Part shown: one piece after another, positions 6,252 to 43,244 of the stretch | Position numbering within the stretch: position 1 is the stretch's first letter | Layout: every line of letters begins with the position of its first letter | Assembly: GCA_007693295.1 (NCBI GenBank) | Contig: REDT01000194.1 | Location: 1-59,864 of the forward strand | DNA length: 59,864 nt | From: Balneolaceae bacterium | GTDB lineage: Bacteria; Bacteroidota; Rhodothermia; Balneolales; Balneolaceae | Direction of reading: 5' to 3' | Notes under the pieces: generated by a model | The model's database searches: none | Seen by the model: only the letters and a program-made list of their open reading frames with translations | Told to the model about the DNA's origin: nothing | Translations under genes and position numbers: made by a program

Positions 6252-6529
6252 GAATAAATCCCCTCTGGCCCCGAAGGGATGCCTATGGCAAGAGGGGACA
6301 GATGAAAACGCGTACAGCGATATCATCAGGGGTGTGTACAGCATGGTGTTGAGGCATACCCCGGGACACACCCCTCGTTTGACTCGAAATGCTTCGCATG
6401 CTCGTCTGCACTTATCCCCTCTCGAGAGGGGATATCTTCATCCACCATTGCCCTCCGACGGCTGGCGGAGAGACACTCACTAGCTAAGCTGCAACCAAGA
6501 AATTTATTTACATTTGAATCACCACCATC
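6252..6529. repeat. Palindrome-rich intergenic repeat between arsD and arsA
   Basis: Contains CCCCTCT...AGAGGGG and a perfect 22-bp palindrome TATCCCCTCTCGAGAGGGGATA (6413-6434); resembles sequence at 44-130. Confidence 0.6.
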
Positions 6530-13562: not shown

Positions 13563-13603
13563 CAAGTGGCGCGATAGCGACATCCCGACCCATCGGGAGC
13601 GCA
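13563..13603. repeat. Dispersed head repeat CAAGTGGCGCGATAGCGACATCCCGACCCATCGGGAGCGCA (copy A)
   Basis: Near-identical to 33213-33253; core inverted at 50551-50584; related cores at 13955-13975 and 43171-43189. Confidence 0.9.
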
Positions 13604-13774
13604 GGGCGCAAGGTTCCAGGCTCAAGGTGCAAGGTTCAAGTGGCGCAATAGTGGAAACAGGACCTGACAGCACCAACCGGACTGTGTCCGACTACCGGCG
13701 GATCTGTCAGCGTCCGGCGCAGGGTGCGCGGGGCACGGAAAAGAAGGTAAGAAATTGAGAAAAGTTGAAGGTTA

Positions 13775-13917
13775 CAAGCACCAAATTCCAAAGGGTAGGC
13801 AGTTGACAGTAGGCAAATTTTAAATCACAAATTTCAATTAGCAAATTCCAAACGTAGCCTGAGTATAAAATATGGGCACGTAATCGGGAAAAGCGCCCGT
13901 TTGGAATTTGGTGCTTG
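13775..13917. repeat. Cassette with inverted-repeat ends (copy A)
   Basis: Begins CAAGCACCAAATTCCAAA and ends TTTGGAATTTGGTGCTTG; its interior is the reverse complement of the interior at 33301-33485. Confidence 0.85.
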
Positions 13918-14160
13918 TCATTTGGGATTTCTACAGTTCTACAATTCGACGATTCCATCCCGATGGGTCGGGACTGCGAACAGCGGGCAGCAATTCTACA
14001 ATTCTACAATTCGACGATTCCACAATTCCACAGTTCTACCATCATAAATTTCTCAATACTCAGGACTAAACTTACAAACTGCAAACAGCTATACTTTCCC
14101 ACGAAATCGCCTTATCTTATAAGATTGTTACCTTTTTATAAAAATTATTCGAATTCTTTG

Positions 14161-15363
14161 ATGACTTATCTGGCATTTGTCAGGAAAGAGAGAAGGCTTT
14201 TGTCCTTTGCCGTTTCCTTTACTTTTTTTTCAAGCTTCGGGCAGACTTTTCTGCTCTCCCTGTTTGTACCCTATTTTCTTATCACATTTGAACTGAGCAA
14301 TGCCTCGTTCGGTACGCTCTACTCATTGGCCACTATGACCGGCGCTGTGGCACTGCCGTGGCTGGGGCAATGGATCGATCGAATTCCGCTTCGCCAATAC
14401 AGCATCTATGTAGCTGTGGGATTGCTTTTTGCCAGCGTTTTGATGGCAGTTTCATGGCATATATCAGTTCTTTTTTTAAGCCTTATTATGCTCCGGCTGT
14501 CGGGGCAGGGCCTCAGCAGCCACACTGCTCAGACTACCATGGCCAGGCAATATGATGGTGAGCGTGGCAAGGCGCTGAGTATTTCTGCTCTCGGTTTTCC
14601 AATTGGGGAAGCTCTTTTGCCCTCATTAATAGCCATGATGCTGGTTTATATGCACTGGCAAACCACATGGGCTCTTATTGCTGCCGTAATTGCATTTGTT
14701 TTTATTCCGGTGTTATGGTTTCTGGTCAGGAATGAGAAGCAGGTTGTAAACGATAGCAAAAGCGATGATGCACCTTCTGCGTCTGATAATTACAAAACCA
14801 TATTCAGGGACTACCGAACTGCTTATATCATCCCCGCCATCTTAATGCCGCCTTTTTGGGTTACCGGTCTATTTCTCTACCAGGTATCGGCCGCCGGCGA
14901 CCTTGGATGGACTGCGACGCTTATTGCCTCTGCATTCATTGCATTTGCAGCAGCACGAGTTGTATCGGGACTCATATCCGGCCCGTTAATTGATCGTTTT
15001 TCAGCCCAGGCACTATTTCCATTTCTTCTGGTTCCCATGACGGCCGGCTTTCTGTTTGCGATATTTTTTAACGGTGCATTTTCAGCATTTATCTATATGG
15101 CACTGGTTGGAATTACCCTTGGATTAAGCGGCACGCTGAAATCTGCACTCTGGGCAGAACTCTACGGAACGGATATGATTGGAACCGTACAGAGCCTGTT
15201 TGCTTCAATCATGGTGTTAAGCACGGCTTTAAGTCCGTTCATCGTAGGCTGGATGCTCGACAATGCCTTCAACCTCAATTCAGTACTGATGCTGGCGGTG
15301 GTGAGCTCAGTTTTGGCCGGTTTGGTCTCTATTCGAATTTTCCCGGCCTTTCAGAGGAGTTGA
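14161..15363 (+). CDS. MFS transporter
   Basis: About 400 aa with 12 TM-like segments; the track ORF starts at 13915 but its first 82 codons are repeat-derived, so start reassigned to MTYLAFVRKERR. Confidence 0.88.
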   Translation: MTYLAFVRKERRLLSFAVSFTFFSSFGQTFLLSLFVPYFLITFELSNASFGTLYSLATMTGAVALPWLGQWIDRIPLRQYSIYVAVGLLFASVLMAVSWHISVLFLSLIMLRLSGQGLSSHTAQTTMARQYDGERGKALSISALGFPIGEALLPSLIAMMLVYMHWQTTWALIAAVIAFVFIPVLWFLVRNEKQVVNDSKSDDAPSASDNYKTIFRDYRTAYIIPAILMPPFWVTGLFLYQVSAAGDLGWTATLIASAFIAFAAARVVSGLISGPLIDRFSAQALFPFLLVPMTAGFLFAIFFNGAFSAFIYMALVGITLGLSGTLKSALWAELYGTDMIGTVQSLFASIMVLSTALSPFIVGWMLDNAFNLNSVLMLAVVSSVLAGLVSIRIFPAFQRS

Positions 15364-15506: not shown

Positions 15507-16115
15507 ATGAACTTAGCTGTAATTTTAATCTCACTCACATTTGCCATGACCGATACCAATCATAACAATGCTTCAAATACAGATACCGCAGTTTTCGGCG
15601 CCGGTTGTTTTTGGTGTGTTGAAGCTATTTATCAACGGGTGAATGGTGTAATCGCTGTGGAGTCGGGTTATGCCGGCGGCCATGTGGAGAACCCTACCTA
15701 CAACCAGGTTATTTCAGGAAGAACAGGTCATGCAGAAGTGGCCAAAGTTACGTTTGATCCCGAAATAATCTCCTTTGAAGAGCTTCTTGAAGTGTTCTGG
15801 CACACCCACGATCCGACAACACTGAACCGGCAGGGTGCTGATGTTGGAACGCAGTACAGATCAGCCATCTTTTTTAACTCACTTGAGCAGAAACAGATTG
15901 CAGAAAAATCGATGAAAAAGACGGATAGATCAGGACTTTGGGATAACTCCATTGTGACTGAAATTTCTCCTCTCGTTAACTACAGTACAGCAGAGGACTA
16001 TCACCAAAACTACTTTAATAACAACCCAAACGCCGGGTATTGTTCAGTGGTAATAGCGCCAAAACTTGCAAAGTTTAAAAAAGATTTTCCACATTTACTG
16101 CAAGACTCGTTATAA
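15507..16115 (+). CDS. msrA: Peptide-methionine (S)-S-oxide reductase
   Basis: AVFGAGCFWCVEAIYQRVNGV...VESGYAGGHVENPTYNQVISGRTGHAE. Confidence 0.97.
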   Translation: MNLAVILISLTFAMTDTNHNNASNTDTAVFGAGCFWCVEAIYQRVNGVIAVESGYAGGHVENPTYNQVISGRTGHAEVAKVTFDPEIISFEELLEVFWHTHDPTTLNRQGADVGTQYRSAIFFNSLEQKQIAEKSMKKTDRSGLWDNSIVTEISPLVNYSTAEDYHQNYFNNNPNAGYCSVVIAPKLAKFKKDFPHLLQDSL

Positions 16116-16150
16116 TGAGATAACCAATCACAAAAAACTTAAGACAAGAT

Positions 16151-16705
16151 ATGAAAGCACTGATTATAGGAGTCTCTGTTCTGCTTACCGGTTTGCTGTT
16201 CACCAACACTGCAATCGCCCAGGAGCGAACTACCGACCGGGTCTGGGTTAGCCCAAATGCAGCCGTTACACAAACCATAGGCCTCACCGAAATTCACGTT
16301 ACGTACGGACGTCCGGGTGTTCGCGAGCGGGCAATCTTTGGCGGACTTGTACCATTCGAACAGGTTTGGAGAACCGGTGCAAACGAAGCTACAGCTATTG
16401 TATTCGGAGATGATGTACGCGTTGAGGGAGAGCATGTGCCTGCAGGAACCTACTCACTTTATACCATTCCGGGCGAAGATGAGTGGACAGTAATCATTAA
16501 TGAAAAACTCTCTTGGGGAACTCAGTACGATGAAGCTGAAGATCTGTTGAGAGTTTCTGTACAACCTGAGGAGTCGTTCTTTATGGAGCAAATGATGATC
16601 TATTTTGAGAATGTGACTGCCGAGCAGGGAGATCTCTACATCCATTGGGACAACATTCGGGTTCCTGTACGAATTGAGCCTGTGGCTGAACTGCCTGAGC
16701 AGTAG
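16151..16705 (+). CDS. DUF2911-family secreted protein
   Basis: Signal peptide; ITEHVTYGRPGVRERAIFGG-like core, VWRTGANEATAI, VPAGTYSLYTIPGEDEWTVIINE. Confidence 0.88.
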   Translation: MKALIIGVSVLLTGLLFTNTAIAQERTTDRVWVSPNAAVTQTIGLTEIHVTYGRPGVRERAIFGGLVPFEQVWRTGANEATAIVFGDDVRVEGEHVPAGTYSLYTIPGEDEWTVIINEKLSWGTQYDEAEDLLRVSVQPEESFFMEQMMIYFENVTAEQGDLYIHWDNIRVPVRIEPVAELPEQ

Positions 16706-16711
16706 GAAAAA

Positions 16712-16752
16712 CTGGACAAACTAGCGCGAGCGTCCCGCTCGCGCTAGTTTGT
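16712..16752. repeat. REP-like hairpin (left of RAYT)
   Basis: GGACAAACTAGCGCGAGCG-TCC-CGCTCGCGCTAGTTTGTCC: perfect 19-bp arms with 3-nt loop. Confidence 0.88.
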
Positions 16753-16833
16753 CCGCTTTCATTAGAAATTCAAGCCAAACTGTAAGGAGTTTCTGTTTTT
16801 TCATTCATACATATATGAACGAGTGGAGAGTGT

Positions 16834-17382
16834 ATGAGTGAAAAGTACAGAGTCAGAAATGAGTCATTGCCTCATTTCGTTACATTTACTGTGGTTAGAT
16901 GGATAGATCTGTTTACCCGCAATGAGTACAAAGAGATTGTTATAGAGAGCCTCAAATTCTGTCAAAAAGAGAAAGGTCTTCTTATATTTTCGTACTGCAT
17001 CATGACAAATCACCTGCACCTGATAGTGGGTACAGAGGGGAGTAATAGATTGGGCAATATTATCCGGGGCTTTAGAGGGTTCACATCTAAAAAATTGATC
17101 AAAGCGATTAAGGAAAATCCAAAAGAGAGCAGAAAAGAGTGGCTGTTGCAACTATTTTTTTTGGAAGGTCAGAAAAGATCATCTAATAAATACTTTCAAG
17201 TCTGGAAGAGAAATTACCACCCAAAAGGGCTTTACGATCAAAACATTTTTGATCAGAAACGTAACTACATCCATGCAAATCCGGTAAAGGCAGGCTTTGT
17301 ATTTAAGCCGGAAGATTTTGTGTTCAGCAGTGCGTCGAACTATGCGGGAAGGGGTGGGTTGATTGATGTGATTGTTGAGTAG
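16834..17382 (+). CDS. REP-associated tyrosine transposase (Y1_Tnp / IS200-like superfamily)
   Basis: HUH motif MTNHLHLIVG; NYIHANPVKAGFV C-terminal tyrosine motif; REP-like hairpins on both sides. Confidence 0.92.
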   Translation: MSEKYRVRNESLPHFVTFTVVRWIDLFTRNEYKEIVIESLKFCQKEKGLLIFSYCIMTNHLHLIVGTEGSNRLGNIIRGFRGFTSKKLIKAIKENPKESRKEWLLQLFFLEGQKRSSNKYFQVWKRNYHPKGLYDQNIFDQKRNYIHANPVKAGFVFKPEDFVFSSASNYAGRGGLIDVIVE

Positions 17383-17391
17383 AAAAGAAAA

Positions 17392-17478
17392 GAACTGTCA
17401 CGAGCGGGATGCTCGCGCCAGTTCTTTTACGCAAACTAGCGCGAGCGTCCCGCTCGTGATAGTTTGCCCCCGCTCGTG
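17392..17478. repeat. REP-like inverted hairpin pair (right of RAYT)
   Basis: AAGAACTG-TCACGAGCGGGATGCTCGCGC-CAGTTCTT followed by CAAACTA-GCGCGAGCGTCCCGCTCGTGA-TAGTTTG; the cores are reverse complements of each other with one difference. Confidence 0.85.
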
Positions 17479-17486
17479 TAGTTTGT

Positions 17487-19958
17487 TTAAAATCTCACAT
17501 TCAAATTCATCAGCACACTTCTCTCGGCCTGAGGGAAGTAGTAGTTAAAATGCTGCTGCTCGCCGCCGGCAATCCAGCCGAAGGTATAACCATTGCTAAC
17601 ATATTTCTCGTTCAGTACATTATTTAGCTGCAGTGAAGCTGTGATATTACGTACAAACGGTACATTTGCAAATCCGTAGCTAAACTTCAGATCATTCACC
17701 CAGTAGGGATCAATTGAACGGGATTGAGATTGGGTGTTATCCAGAAATTGCCGTGAAACATATCGCGAGGTCCATTCGGTTTTGAGGTTTCCCAGCTGAT
17801 AACCAAGTATTGAGTTGGCAATGGTGCCGGGAGATAGCGCAATATCTACATTCTCAAAGACCTGCCGCTGCTGGCCGCCCTGGTCAAAATCATCCAGAAA
17901 ATACTCATACTCATCTATTTTATTCCGGCTGAAGGTCACGTTCCCGTTCCACGTAAATTGATCGGATATCTGTGCTCCAAGCTGGAATTCAACTCCTGCC
18001 CGGTGGCTGTCAGCTACATTTTCGCGAACGGTGTTACCCACGTCATTCACTTCGCCGGTTAGAATAAGCTGATCTCTGTAGAGCATATAGTAGAGATTGA
18101 CGCCGACTTCAAACCGGCTAAAACTCCCGCTGTATCCTAACTCGTAATCATAAAGACGTTCCGGATCGGGCCGGCTGTCGGGACTTGAATCCACATAGTC
18201 GCGTCGAGTGGGTTCTTTTCCGCCCACACTAAAAGAAGCGAAAGCGCGGTGGCCATCAGCAAACCGATAGACCAATCCTGCCTTGGGATTCAGGAAGTTG
18301 ATTCGTTCCTGTTGGGTTACATCGCTTACTTCACCTGTCTCTCCGTCAACCCGCAGACCCAAAAACCGATAGGTAACGGCTCTGTATTGAATATCAGCAT
18401 AGATATTGAGTTGTGGTGTGAGGTAGTAGTTCAGTTTTCCGTAAACATTGAAGTCGGTTTTAAATCCGTTATTATCGTAATAGCGATCGCCCAGGTCACT
18501 GTCGCCGGCAAAACGCGCCCAAATCACCTCACCGAAGTGGTCACCATCGTACTCATTGTACCCGCCGCCCAGGGTCAGGTCCCATCTATCCTGTTGTTCA
18601 TATTGAGTAGAGATGATCGCTCCATAAAAATGGTTATCAAGCCATCGTCTGCGAACCAGGTCGCTTCTATCAATAACCTCATTACCGATTTCAACGGGAC
18701 TGATGCTGTATGTGCTTAAGCGGTCATTATTCCTGAACTGTTCAAAATATCCCCGGCCGTAGGTATAGTGCAGTGAGGTGTTTGCGGTCCAGTTGTCCTG
18801 AATACGGTAGGAGTAGTGCAGCTGGTAATGATCCTGCTGGTAATTATCCACCTGGTTCTCGTAGGTGAATTGATTGAAGCGGCGGTTGCCCAGATTATTT
18901 TGCCAGCGTGTTGCATCATCACTTCCAAGAAAAAGCTGCGTGATGTAGTGGTCGAGCTGATCTGCATCGTTGTTGAGAATGGGTTCAGGCACACCGTTCC
19001 ATGCCTGGTAGGTCACCTCTTGTCCGGAGAAGACATCTGCTTTGAGCAAACTTCTGTCGCCATGGCGGGCTGCAGACAGGTAGAACGACCTTAAATCAGC
19101 CTCAGCCCGGTTGATATAGCCGTCAGATTCAATTTTTGAGAGGCGGCCTTCAAACTGCCAGCCGTTATCCATGAGTCCTGAACCGAGCTGAACATTGGCT
19201 TTTTGTGTACCAAACGATCCGGCCCCAAGGGTTACCTCACCATAGGCTTCCGGTCTCATCAGGGCAGTCTGTAAATTCATAGACGCCCCGAAGGCACCTG
19301 CACCCTGTGTAGAGGTACCCACCCCGCGCTGAATCTGAATATTTTGCGTTGATGATGCAAGATCAGGCATATTCACCCAAAAAACCCCGTGCGATTCTGA
19401 GTCATTTATCGGAATTCCATTAACCGTAACATTAATACGCGCCTGGTCAACTCCGCGAATTCTCATATCGGTATATCCGATTCCCGCCCCGGCATCAGAT
19501 GAGGAGACAACTGAGGGCGAAGTGCTGATCAGCATTGGGATATCCTGGCCAAAATTATTGGATTCAATTTGATCACGGCTGATATTGGTGTAGGCAATAG
19601 GAGTTGATTCATCAACCCGAAGCGCCCTTACAAACACTTCTCCACTGAGAATGGCCTGCTGTTCCAGCTCTATAGTCAGGAATTGGTCTGCATCTGAAAA
19701 GGGAATTTCTGCTGTCTTATATCCTACAAAACTGACGGTAATGTGGCTCACATCTGAAATCAGGTTCAGAGAAAAGCTGCCATCACCGGCTGCTGAAGTT
19801 CCGTTTGTGGTTCCGGTTTCAAGAATAGTGGCTCCCTGCAGGGGTTCACCGGTTGCCCGATCGGTAACACGGCCTTCAAGGGTTTGTGCGTGTATTTGAA
19901 GAGAGAATCCCAGGAATATGGGAATCAGAAAAGATAGAAATTGTACTGTTTTAGACAT
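17487..19958 (-). CDS. TonB-dependent receptor with N-terminal carboxypeptidase-regulatory-like domain; predicted thiamin(-precursor) uptake
   Basis: LEGRVTDRATGEPLQGATILETGT; plug SVVSSSDAGAGIGYTDMRIRGVDQARINVTVNGIPINDSESHGVFWVNMPD; TPP riboswitch upstream. Confidence 0.9.
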   Translation of the reverse strand: MSKTVQFLSFLIPIFLGFSLQIHAQTLEGRVTDRATGEPLQGATILETGTTNGTSAAGDGSFSLNLISDVSHITVSFVGYKTAEIPFSDADQFLTIELEQQAILSGEVFVRALRVDESTPIAYTNISRDQIESNNFGQDIPMLISTSPSVVSSSDAGAGIGYTDMRIRGVDQARINVTVNGIPINDSESHGVFWVNMPDLASSTQNIQIQRGVGTSTQGAGAFGASMNLQTALMRPEAYGEVTLGAGSFGTQKANVQLGSGLMDNGWQFEGRLSKIESDGYINRAEADLRSFYLSAARHGDRSLLKADVFSGQEVTYQAWNGVPEPILNNDADQLDHYITQLFLGSDDATRWQNNLGNRRFNQFTYENQVDNYQQDHYQLHYSYRIQDNWTANTSLHYTYGRGYFEQFRNNDRLSTYSISPVEIGNEVIDRSDLVRRRWLDNHFYGAIISTQYEQQDRWDLTLGGGYNEYDGDHFGEVIWARFAGDSDLGDRYYDNNGFKTDFNVYGKLNYYLTPQLNIYADIQYRAVTYRFLGLRVDGETGEVSDVTQQERINFLNPKAGLVYRFADGHRAFASFSVGGKEPTRRDYVDSSPDSRPDPERLYDYELGYSGSFSRFEVGVNLYYMLYRDQLILTGEVNDVGNTVRENVADSHRAGVEFQLGAQISDQFTWNGNVTFSRNKIDEYEYFLDDFDQGGQQRQVFENVDIALSPGTIANSILGYQLGNLKTEWTSRYVSRQFLDNTQSQSRSIDPYWVNDLKFSYGFANVPFVRNITASLQLNNVLNEKYVSNGYTFGWIAGGEQQHFNYYFPQAERSVLMNLNVRF

Positions 19959-33212: not shown

Positions 33213-33253
33213 CAAGTGGCGCGATAGCGACATCCCGACCCATCGGGAGCGCA
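33213..33253. repeat. Dispersed head repeat, copy B
   Basis: Near-identical to 13563-13603, same orientation. Confidence 0.9.
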
Positions 33254-33300
33254 CGGTGCAAGGAAAAGTAGTTAAGAAATTGAGAAAAGTTGCCAAATGA

Positions 33301-43053: not shown

Positions 43054-43244
43054 AAGTTTAAAGGCTTTATTTATTTTATGTTTTTTTGTCAACACCTAAA
43101 CAGGAGTCAGAACTAAATTTGCCAGCTGCTGCGTGCTTTTCACTTCGTGGGAATCGCTACGCTCGGAGCGCAGTCCCGACCCATCGGGGCGAACTGTCAA
43201 AATCGACGCTGATTCCGCTTCTGTTCGGAATCTTGGGTTATTGG

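Follow-up and report, generated by a model that had tools for sequence, protein, structure and literature searches.

A RAYT locus of a Balneolaceae bacterium with REP hairpins of common core and site-specific, complementary outer arms

Genes and hairpins at the RAYT locus

We analysed a 59.9-kb stretch of DNA from a Balneolaceae bacterium (contig REDT01000194.1), hereafter the window, which belongs to a draft assembly of 334 contigs (G000). The gene of a REP-associated tyrosine transposase (RAYT), a small domesticated transposase, lies together with three hairpins between a DUF2911 protein gene and a TonB-dependent receptor gene (Table 1); many relatives that lack the RAYT have these two neighbours in the same order. 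The only close relative that we found, the sister genome G050, has a nearly identical TonB receptor (99% amino acid identity, dS 0.21), which therefore serves as the anchor for comparison of the two genomes.

Table 1. Features between and including the DUF2911 and TonB receptor genes (window coordinates)
Feature	Position	Strand	Remarks
DUF2911 protein gene	16151..16705	+	Pfam PF11138, E 4.2e-51; stop codon 8 bp before left hairpin
Left REP hairpin	16714..16754	.	Arms GGACAAACTAGCG / CGCTAGTTTGTCC; 19 base pairs, uninterrupted
RAYT, 182 aa	16834..17382	+	NF047646, PF01797
Right hairpin 1	17388..17428	.	Arms AAAAGAACTG / CAGTTCTTTT; 5 bp 3′ of RAYT stop
49 bp missing in G050	17429..17477	.	G050 has CTTTT joined directly to GTAGTTTG
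Right hairpin 2	17431..17467	.	Arms GCAAACTA / TAGTTTGC; inverted relative to hairpin 1; absent in G050
Half-unit CCCCGCTCGTGTAGTTTG	17468..17485	.	Repeats hairpin 2 loop, 3′ core half and 3′ arm
TonB-dependent receptor gene	17487..19958	-	Pfam; convergent with RAYT

The three hairpins share the core CGAGCG-TCC-CGCTCG, and half-core matches within the window are confined to them. The left one reads GGACAAACTAGCG-CGAGCG-TCC-CGCTCG-CGCTAGTTTGTCC, hairpin 1 reads AAAAGAACTG-TCACGAGCGGGATGCTCGCGC-CAGTTCTTTT, and hairpin 2 reads GCAAACTA-GCGCGAGCGTCCCGCTCGTGA-TAGTTTGC, its arm being that of the left hairpin. The initial annotation had described the outer stems as either unrelated or related, yet each self-complementary. 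This holds in G000, where the AAAAGAACTG arm is indeed unrelated to CAAACTA, except that the bases adjoining the core, (C)TRGCG / TGMYA, are common to the copies and belong to the repeat. The left hairpin, unlike its relatives, shows no G-T or G-A irregularities. Folded as DNA, the hairpins reach -26 kcal/mol (left), -13.5/-17.5 (hairpin 1) and -16.1/-12.2 (hairpin 2), with z-scores of -4.5 to -10.3 and no shuffle as good, and all were recovered independently by repeat and folding tools. That hairpins 1 and 2 are mutually inverted can be read directly in the sequence, as had been noted; of this REPIN-like pair G050 has only one member, and inverted pairs are common in two other relatives, G067 and G068. 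The 49-bp difference between the genomes, made up of hairpin 2 and a half-unit, would represent either an insertion in G000 or a deletion in G050.

The RAYT scores 94.4 bits against NCBIfam NF047646 (cut-off 80) and also exceeds the cut-off of Pfam Y1_Tnp, and its flanking hairpins recur elsewhere in the genome, in four core copies on three other contigs plus one recovered by a covariance model, which upholds its annotation as a RAYT with flanking REP hairpins. The HUH motif is H60-L61-H62 (NHLH), the catalytic tyrosine is Y145 in YIHANP, and an FSS motif lies near the C-terminus. Y145 is invariant among the homologues covering it and stands opposite position 115 of TnpAREP 4er8 in the alignment. 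The alternative that F139 in IFDQKRNYIHANP marks a lost catalytic tyrosine was rejected, since alignment with 4er8 and the homologues places the tyrosine at Y145, intact. Judged by motifs and spacing against the table in PMC6006769, the protein fits TnpAREP subclass 2.6, which is characterized there by NH[LIV]H, YIH[QN]NP, a HuH-Tyr spacing near 82 and an SS motif, and found mostly in Bacteroidetes; our protein deviates in having A for [QN] in YIHANP and WK for WQ. It forms a clade with the RAYTs of G050, G063, G065 and G067 (support 99/97), and hairpins of the CGAGCG/CAAGCG type adjoin the gene in 5/5. RAYT homologues in other genera (L134, L137) lie near identical hairpins with another core, ctttgaagca TCC tgcttcaaag, and these flanking sequences suggest one cognate hairpin per RAYT lineage.

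Elsewhere in the window, positions 13563-13613, 33213-33263 and 43167-43188 hold a second family of dispersed repeats, which have in common the motif CATCCCGACCCATCGGGAGC and some further stretches; a tandem 8-base repeat, TTCTACAA/TTCGACGA, occupies 13921-14046 near the start of a long ORF (13915-15363); and GCCCCGTAGGGAT-type repeats at 55-115 and 6268-6295 may constitute another palindromic repeat family.

Core copies and their arms in G000 and its relatives

Searching G000 for the core pattern with at most one mismatch, and disregarding the arms, yielded seven places on four contigs, while the reversed pattern, used as a control, yielded none. The covariance model recovered eight distinct places, the extra copy being C321:7524. 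Complementary arms are present in 7/7 pattern matches and are of the types CAAACTAG, AAAAGAACTG, CAATAG, AAAAAAATAG and TTGGCTTG. At arm positions 5-12, 82% of the pairs are Watson-Crick, as opposed to 47% when the 3′ arms are dealt anew (9/20,000). Pair counting over the seven copies found 90.5% of the cells paired and nine pairs changed on both sides. The covariation score is 0.476 versus 0.171 in shuffles (0/500) and 0.07-0.12 with slid partners, in a procedure where the shuffle ignores kinship; since two arm types occur twice, the set amounts to about five independent arms rather than seven. The stem covariation that the initial annotation proposed to look for among collected copies is thus present in G000.

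The arm CAAACTA is found at two sites 690 bp apart, the left hairpin and hairpin 2, and GTTGGCT, or ten bases GTTGGCTGTA, at both C302 copies (5625 and 9294), 3.7 kb apart, so that some arms can apparently also be transferred to a nearby site, or copied there. The core is preceded by (C)TRGCG in most copies and by CTTGTG at C302, neither of which is a GTAG-type REP foot. A search for CAAGCG...CGCTTG revealed no further long-armed copy among the G000 places inspected, and no Rfam family reached its threshold. Half-units consisting of arm, half core and loop lie in tandem beside the hairpins at C302, C107 and hairpin 2, those at C107 and C302 being equivalent to CCCCGCTCGTGTAGTTTG. Tandem half-REP arrays (arm + GCGAGCGTCCCG) were recorded at L181 (C302 of G000), L182 and L187/L188 (C227 of G050), with units of ~22-34 bp; each array ends in one complete hairpin, and the number of units differs between G000 and G050.

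The core is patchily distributed in the family, being present in 17/92 genomes, with 36 copies in G067, 24 in G010, 15 in G068, and 7 in a fourth relative. Copies in G067, G010 and G068 are ordinary REPs; in G067 and G068 they often form inverted pairs (GATRGCG-core-TGCY...RGCACAAGCGAGACGCTTGCGCYATC). The inner four positions covary (A-T/G-C) in G067 (0/20,000) and, less strongly, in G068 and G010, while the outer arm positions pair at 21-35% in these three genomes and, in G059 too, no better than when dealt anew. As this is the chance level, the long arms are not part of the repeat. A scan of public genomes found the same core without paired arms in Flavobacteriia as well, which, together with the relatives, indicates that over long range the core spreads without arms. 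In a set of 129 genomes of the order, high-scoring model matches with long arms were confined to G000 and G050 and to single sites in G057, G068 and G010. In G063, the REP beside the RAYT has ten additional pairs with T9 behind them, and is located right after a stop codon; the closest relative of this genome, G052, gave only paralogous matches to the site, and other relatives are too diverged. Across these genomes, long arms are a property of particular sites, concentrated in the G000/G050 species pair. The initial annotation would have been contradicted by the absence of copies away from the gene, or by copies without complementary outer stems: such copies exist and are all armed in G000, and elsewhere same-core copies are unpaired apart from single cases.

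The Flavobacteriia loci (L290, L236, L268, L259 and others) carry the same 15-base core with flanks GCTRGCG...TG in low-GC Flavobacterium genomes, with several core copies within 8 kb in F. geliluteum, and by sequence comparison the REP core is conserved across distant lineages; in high-GC genomes the 15-base core alone is not diagnostic, and matches there are probably due to chance. A scan of viral contigs for a longer core retrieved nothing.

Differences between the sister genomes

Changed but complementary outer stems mostly hold in G050 too, and the arms of hairpin 1 are identical in both genomes. At C302:5625, the REP adjoins what we take to be a yjbQ-like protein gene. In 16 relatives that lack the REP, the yjbQ-like orthologues terminate with ...VQ(V/I)xG plus a few residues, and in G000 and G050 the REP starts right after those codons. 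Because the 16 REP-less relatives keep this ending, GTTGG in the outer part of the arm is evidently host coding sequence that was there before the REP; its complement, GCCAA, is found in the opposite arm. The insertion also affects the protein: at L120:5206-5655, the REP at the last yjbQ-like codons extends the C-terminus by LYERDARTSQA in G000, and by a tail read in a different frame in G050.

The array-side arm at C302:5625, CTTGGCTTGTG, is unchanged in both genomes, and its partner is TACAAGCCAAG in G000 and TACAGCCAACC in G050. Compared with the G050 partner, that of G000 has an A inserted and a G in place of a C; each of these two changes restores pairing, and together they raise it from 5 to 10 of 11 pairs. 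In simulations, independent mutation produces such pairing with P 4e-6 at the neighbouring divergence of 2.8%, and 1.5e-4 at 15%. The G000 form is probably derived, since TACAGCCAAC is also found at C302:9294 in both genomes. In the left hairpin, 13/13 arm pairs are formed in G000 and 8/13 in G050, and all five differences give pairing (P 0.004 given the sites). Here the 3′ arm TGATAGTTTGCCC is common to the left hairpin of G050 and hairpin 2 of G000, while the left copy of G000 has CGCTAGTTTGTCC, so that the perfect G000 form is again probably the derived one. Relative to G050, both sites thus display clustered changes which all raise complementarity, the pattern expected of quasipalindrome correction, with polarity assigned by parsimony among paralogous copies only, because there is one close sister and both assemblies are drafts. 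Both differences fit copying of one arm from the other in a single step.

The RAYT itself is under purifying selection between G000 and G050 (dN/dS 0.11), and its dS of 0.85 is four times that of the neighbouring TonB receptor. Over window positions 16701-17360, it is a mosaic, with ~64-85% nucleotide identity 5′ of ~17285 and ~95-97% 3′ of it. The high dS and the breakpoint near 17285 point to replacement of the 5′ part of the RAYT, and perhaps of the left hairpin, in one lineage, and the mosaic suggests allele replacement by recombination; the five changes in the left hairpin need therefore not be one event. As E. coli TnpAREP activity needs a mismatch bulge (PMC8266576), the perfect left hairpin, devoid of irregularities, may no longer be a RAYT substrate.

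Two other comparisons were set aside. The C107 locus of G050 was rejected as an empty site, as it fits a deletion-decayed form of the same element, and in orthologous DUF2911-TonB gaps that lack the RAYT the divergence was too great for the origin of the arms to be read from them.

Origin of the arms and comparison with known systems

The explanation that we favour, giving it a slightly better than even chance, is a REPtron whose resident REP arms arise by in-place template-switch copying, with terminator use possibly retaining some of them. The locus would comprise a RAYT and its cognate REP hairpins, with only the core and 4-5 flanking bases being mobile and conserved, and with old resident copies bearing long arms of local flanking DNA. 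During replication, the core hairpin would stall or fold the nascent strand, and the polymerase would briefly copy one flank from the other arm (quasipalindrome correction by intra- or inter-strand template switching), whereby one arm is replaced by the reverse complement of its partner. Overwriting of an arm from its partner would explain why each site has its own sequence and yet complementary arms, and slippage in the same structures would make the tandem half-units. Where a hairpin comes to lie close behind a stop codon, or in the space between two convergent genes, it may be retained as a transcription terminator. It is established for E. coli that template switching perfects imperfect palindromes (PMC7202029), and the same has been inferred for RNA hairpins (PMC8794818). 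We infer the switching step, its direction and the terminator role from the arm comparisons and hairpin positions; replication template switching is the likely agent of arm copying, and selection for termination is a serious rival or partner. Several points speak against the favoured explanation: if correction were a general replication error, the 36 copies of G067 should show some long arms, which they do not, unless they are too young; CAAACTA and GTTGGCT each occur at two sites, so that arms can also be carried along; and the left hairpin lies in a stretch 5′ of ~17285 where G000 and G050 differ by ~15-35%, and may thus be a replaced allele.

Selection for hairpin stability, in which REPs were taken over as (often bidirectional) terminators and stem-restoring point mutations were fixed one by one, is in our view unlikely as the full account. 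In its favour, several hairpins sit 2-11 bp away from a stop codon or in the gap between two convergent genes, the outer arms AAAAGAACTG/CAGTTCTTTT and AAAAAAATAG/CTATTTTTTT are A/T-rich, the G063 hairpin with its ten additional pairs and T9 stands directly behind a stop codon, and terminator-like sites are enriched in 16000-18000 (7 versus 1.9 in shuffles). Terminator use is plausible from these positions, and may help to retain hairpins. However, T-runs follow the stem in some copies and are missing in others (C107 and both C302 copies), the G067 and G068 copies are unpaired outside the core region, and, at a background of 2.8%, the stepwise origin of two clustered changes, one of them an exact-base insertion, is improbable. 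Movement by the RAYT, which would cut and move single-stranded hairpins with their arms or prime synthesis at the foot, so that arms are carried or generated, is distinctly less probable. It agrees with a RAYT that is intact by motifs and under purifying selection, with the arm common to the left hairpin and hairpin 2, with the presence of hairpin 2 in G000 and its absence in G050, and with GTTGGCTGTA at both C302 copies, only one of which lies at the yjbQ-like gene to which GTTGG is native. Against it, an arm is in most cases peculiar to its site, and arms are lacking from the dispersed copies of G067, G068 and G010, so that arm carrying is not the usual mode; moreover, neither target duplications nor a clean empty site were found. 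A variant, which we regard as very doubtful, has the RAYT nick single-stranded DNA at the hairpin foot, upon which the 3′ end would fold on the core and copy the flank, building or renewing site-specific palindromes besides or instead of moving REPs.

Insertion of the core into loops of resident terminators or inverted repeats, the stems of which would then have become the outer arms, is more doubtful still. RAYT-less relatives do have unrelated terminator-like hairpins in the same DUF2911-TonB gap, but the arm at C302:5625 includes gene-end codons and no matching stem is seen in the 16 REP-less relatives, nor is there one in relatives of the G063 site, and arms are present at all own-genome copies. 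A fold-back artefact of assembly or amplification is scarcely credible: G000 is a draft, and fold-back chimeras do make inverted repeats, yet hairpin 1 has the same arms in two species that were assembled independently, and the arms are short with unique sequence on both sides. Of the two mechanisms that the initial annotation had offered, arm copying is favoured by the sister comparison, as probable template-switch correction in place rather than as a part of RAYT mobilisation; selection on hairpin shape, through terminators, may act as well.

The benefit of RAYTs to their hosts, and the way in which REP stems drift yet keep pairing, are open questions. Where arms are clearly local and differ between two close species, as here, nature itself supplies the states before and after a template-switch correction in bacteria. 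Such pairs also allow stem covariation that arose by mutation to be told apart from covariation selected for structure; the two are often conflated where covariation is accepted as proof that an RNA is functional. The patterns suggest template-switch correction, a known mutation process that has seldom been shown for REP-type repeats, and such behaviour of arms was not found described for REPs in the literature searched.

Subclass 2.6, or Bertels group 5, resembles our RAYT, as far as the consulted part of PMC6006769 goes, in NHLH, YIHxNP, ~83 residues between HuH and Tyr and SS after the Tyr, as well as in length (~180 aa), low copy number, and flanking “atypical secondary structures” with copies elsewhere; locus-specific complementary outer arms and half-unit arrays are not described in that part. 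The GTAG REPs, REPINs and BIMEs of proteobacteria (PMC3116915, PMC3733652, PMC8266576) are likewise short GC-rich hairpins in inverted pairs near a RAYT, with stem covariation, at gene 3′ ends and between convergent genes, locations also reported for other REPs (PMC3733652). Unlike them, the hairpins described here have no GTAG/GTGG foot, are few in number, and have an outer stem that is site-specific rather than constant within the family. TIRtrons (PMC3733652) also combine a RAYT-like gene with flanking inverted structures that differ in sequence, but the core of our flanking hairpins is that of a repeat with copies dispersed elsewhere. Quasipalindrome template switching (PMC7202029; PMC8794818) is alike in that clustered changes, including indels, perfect an imperfect inverted repeat; it has been described in reporters, single hotspots and RNA genes, whereas here it would shape the arms of dispersed REPs.
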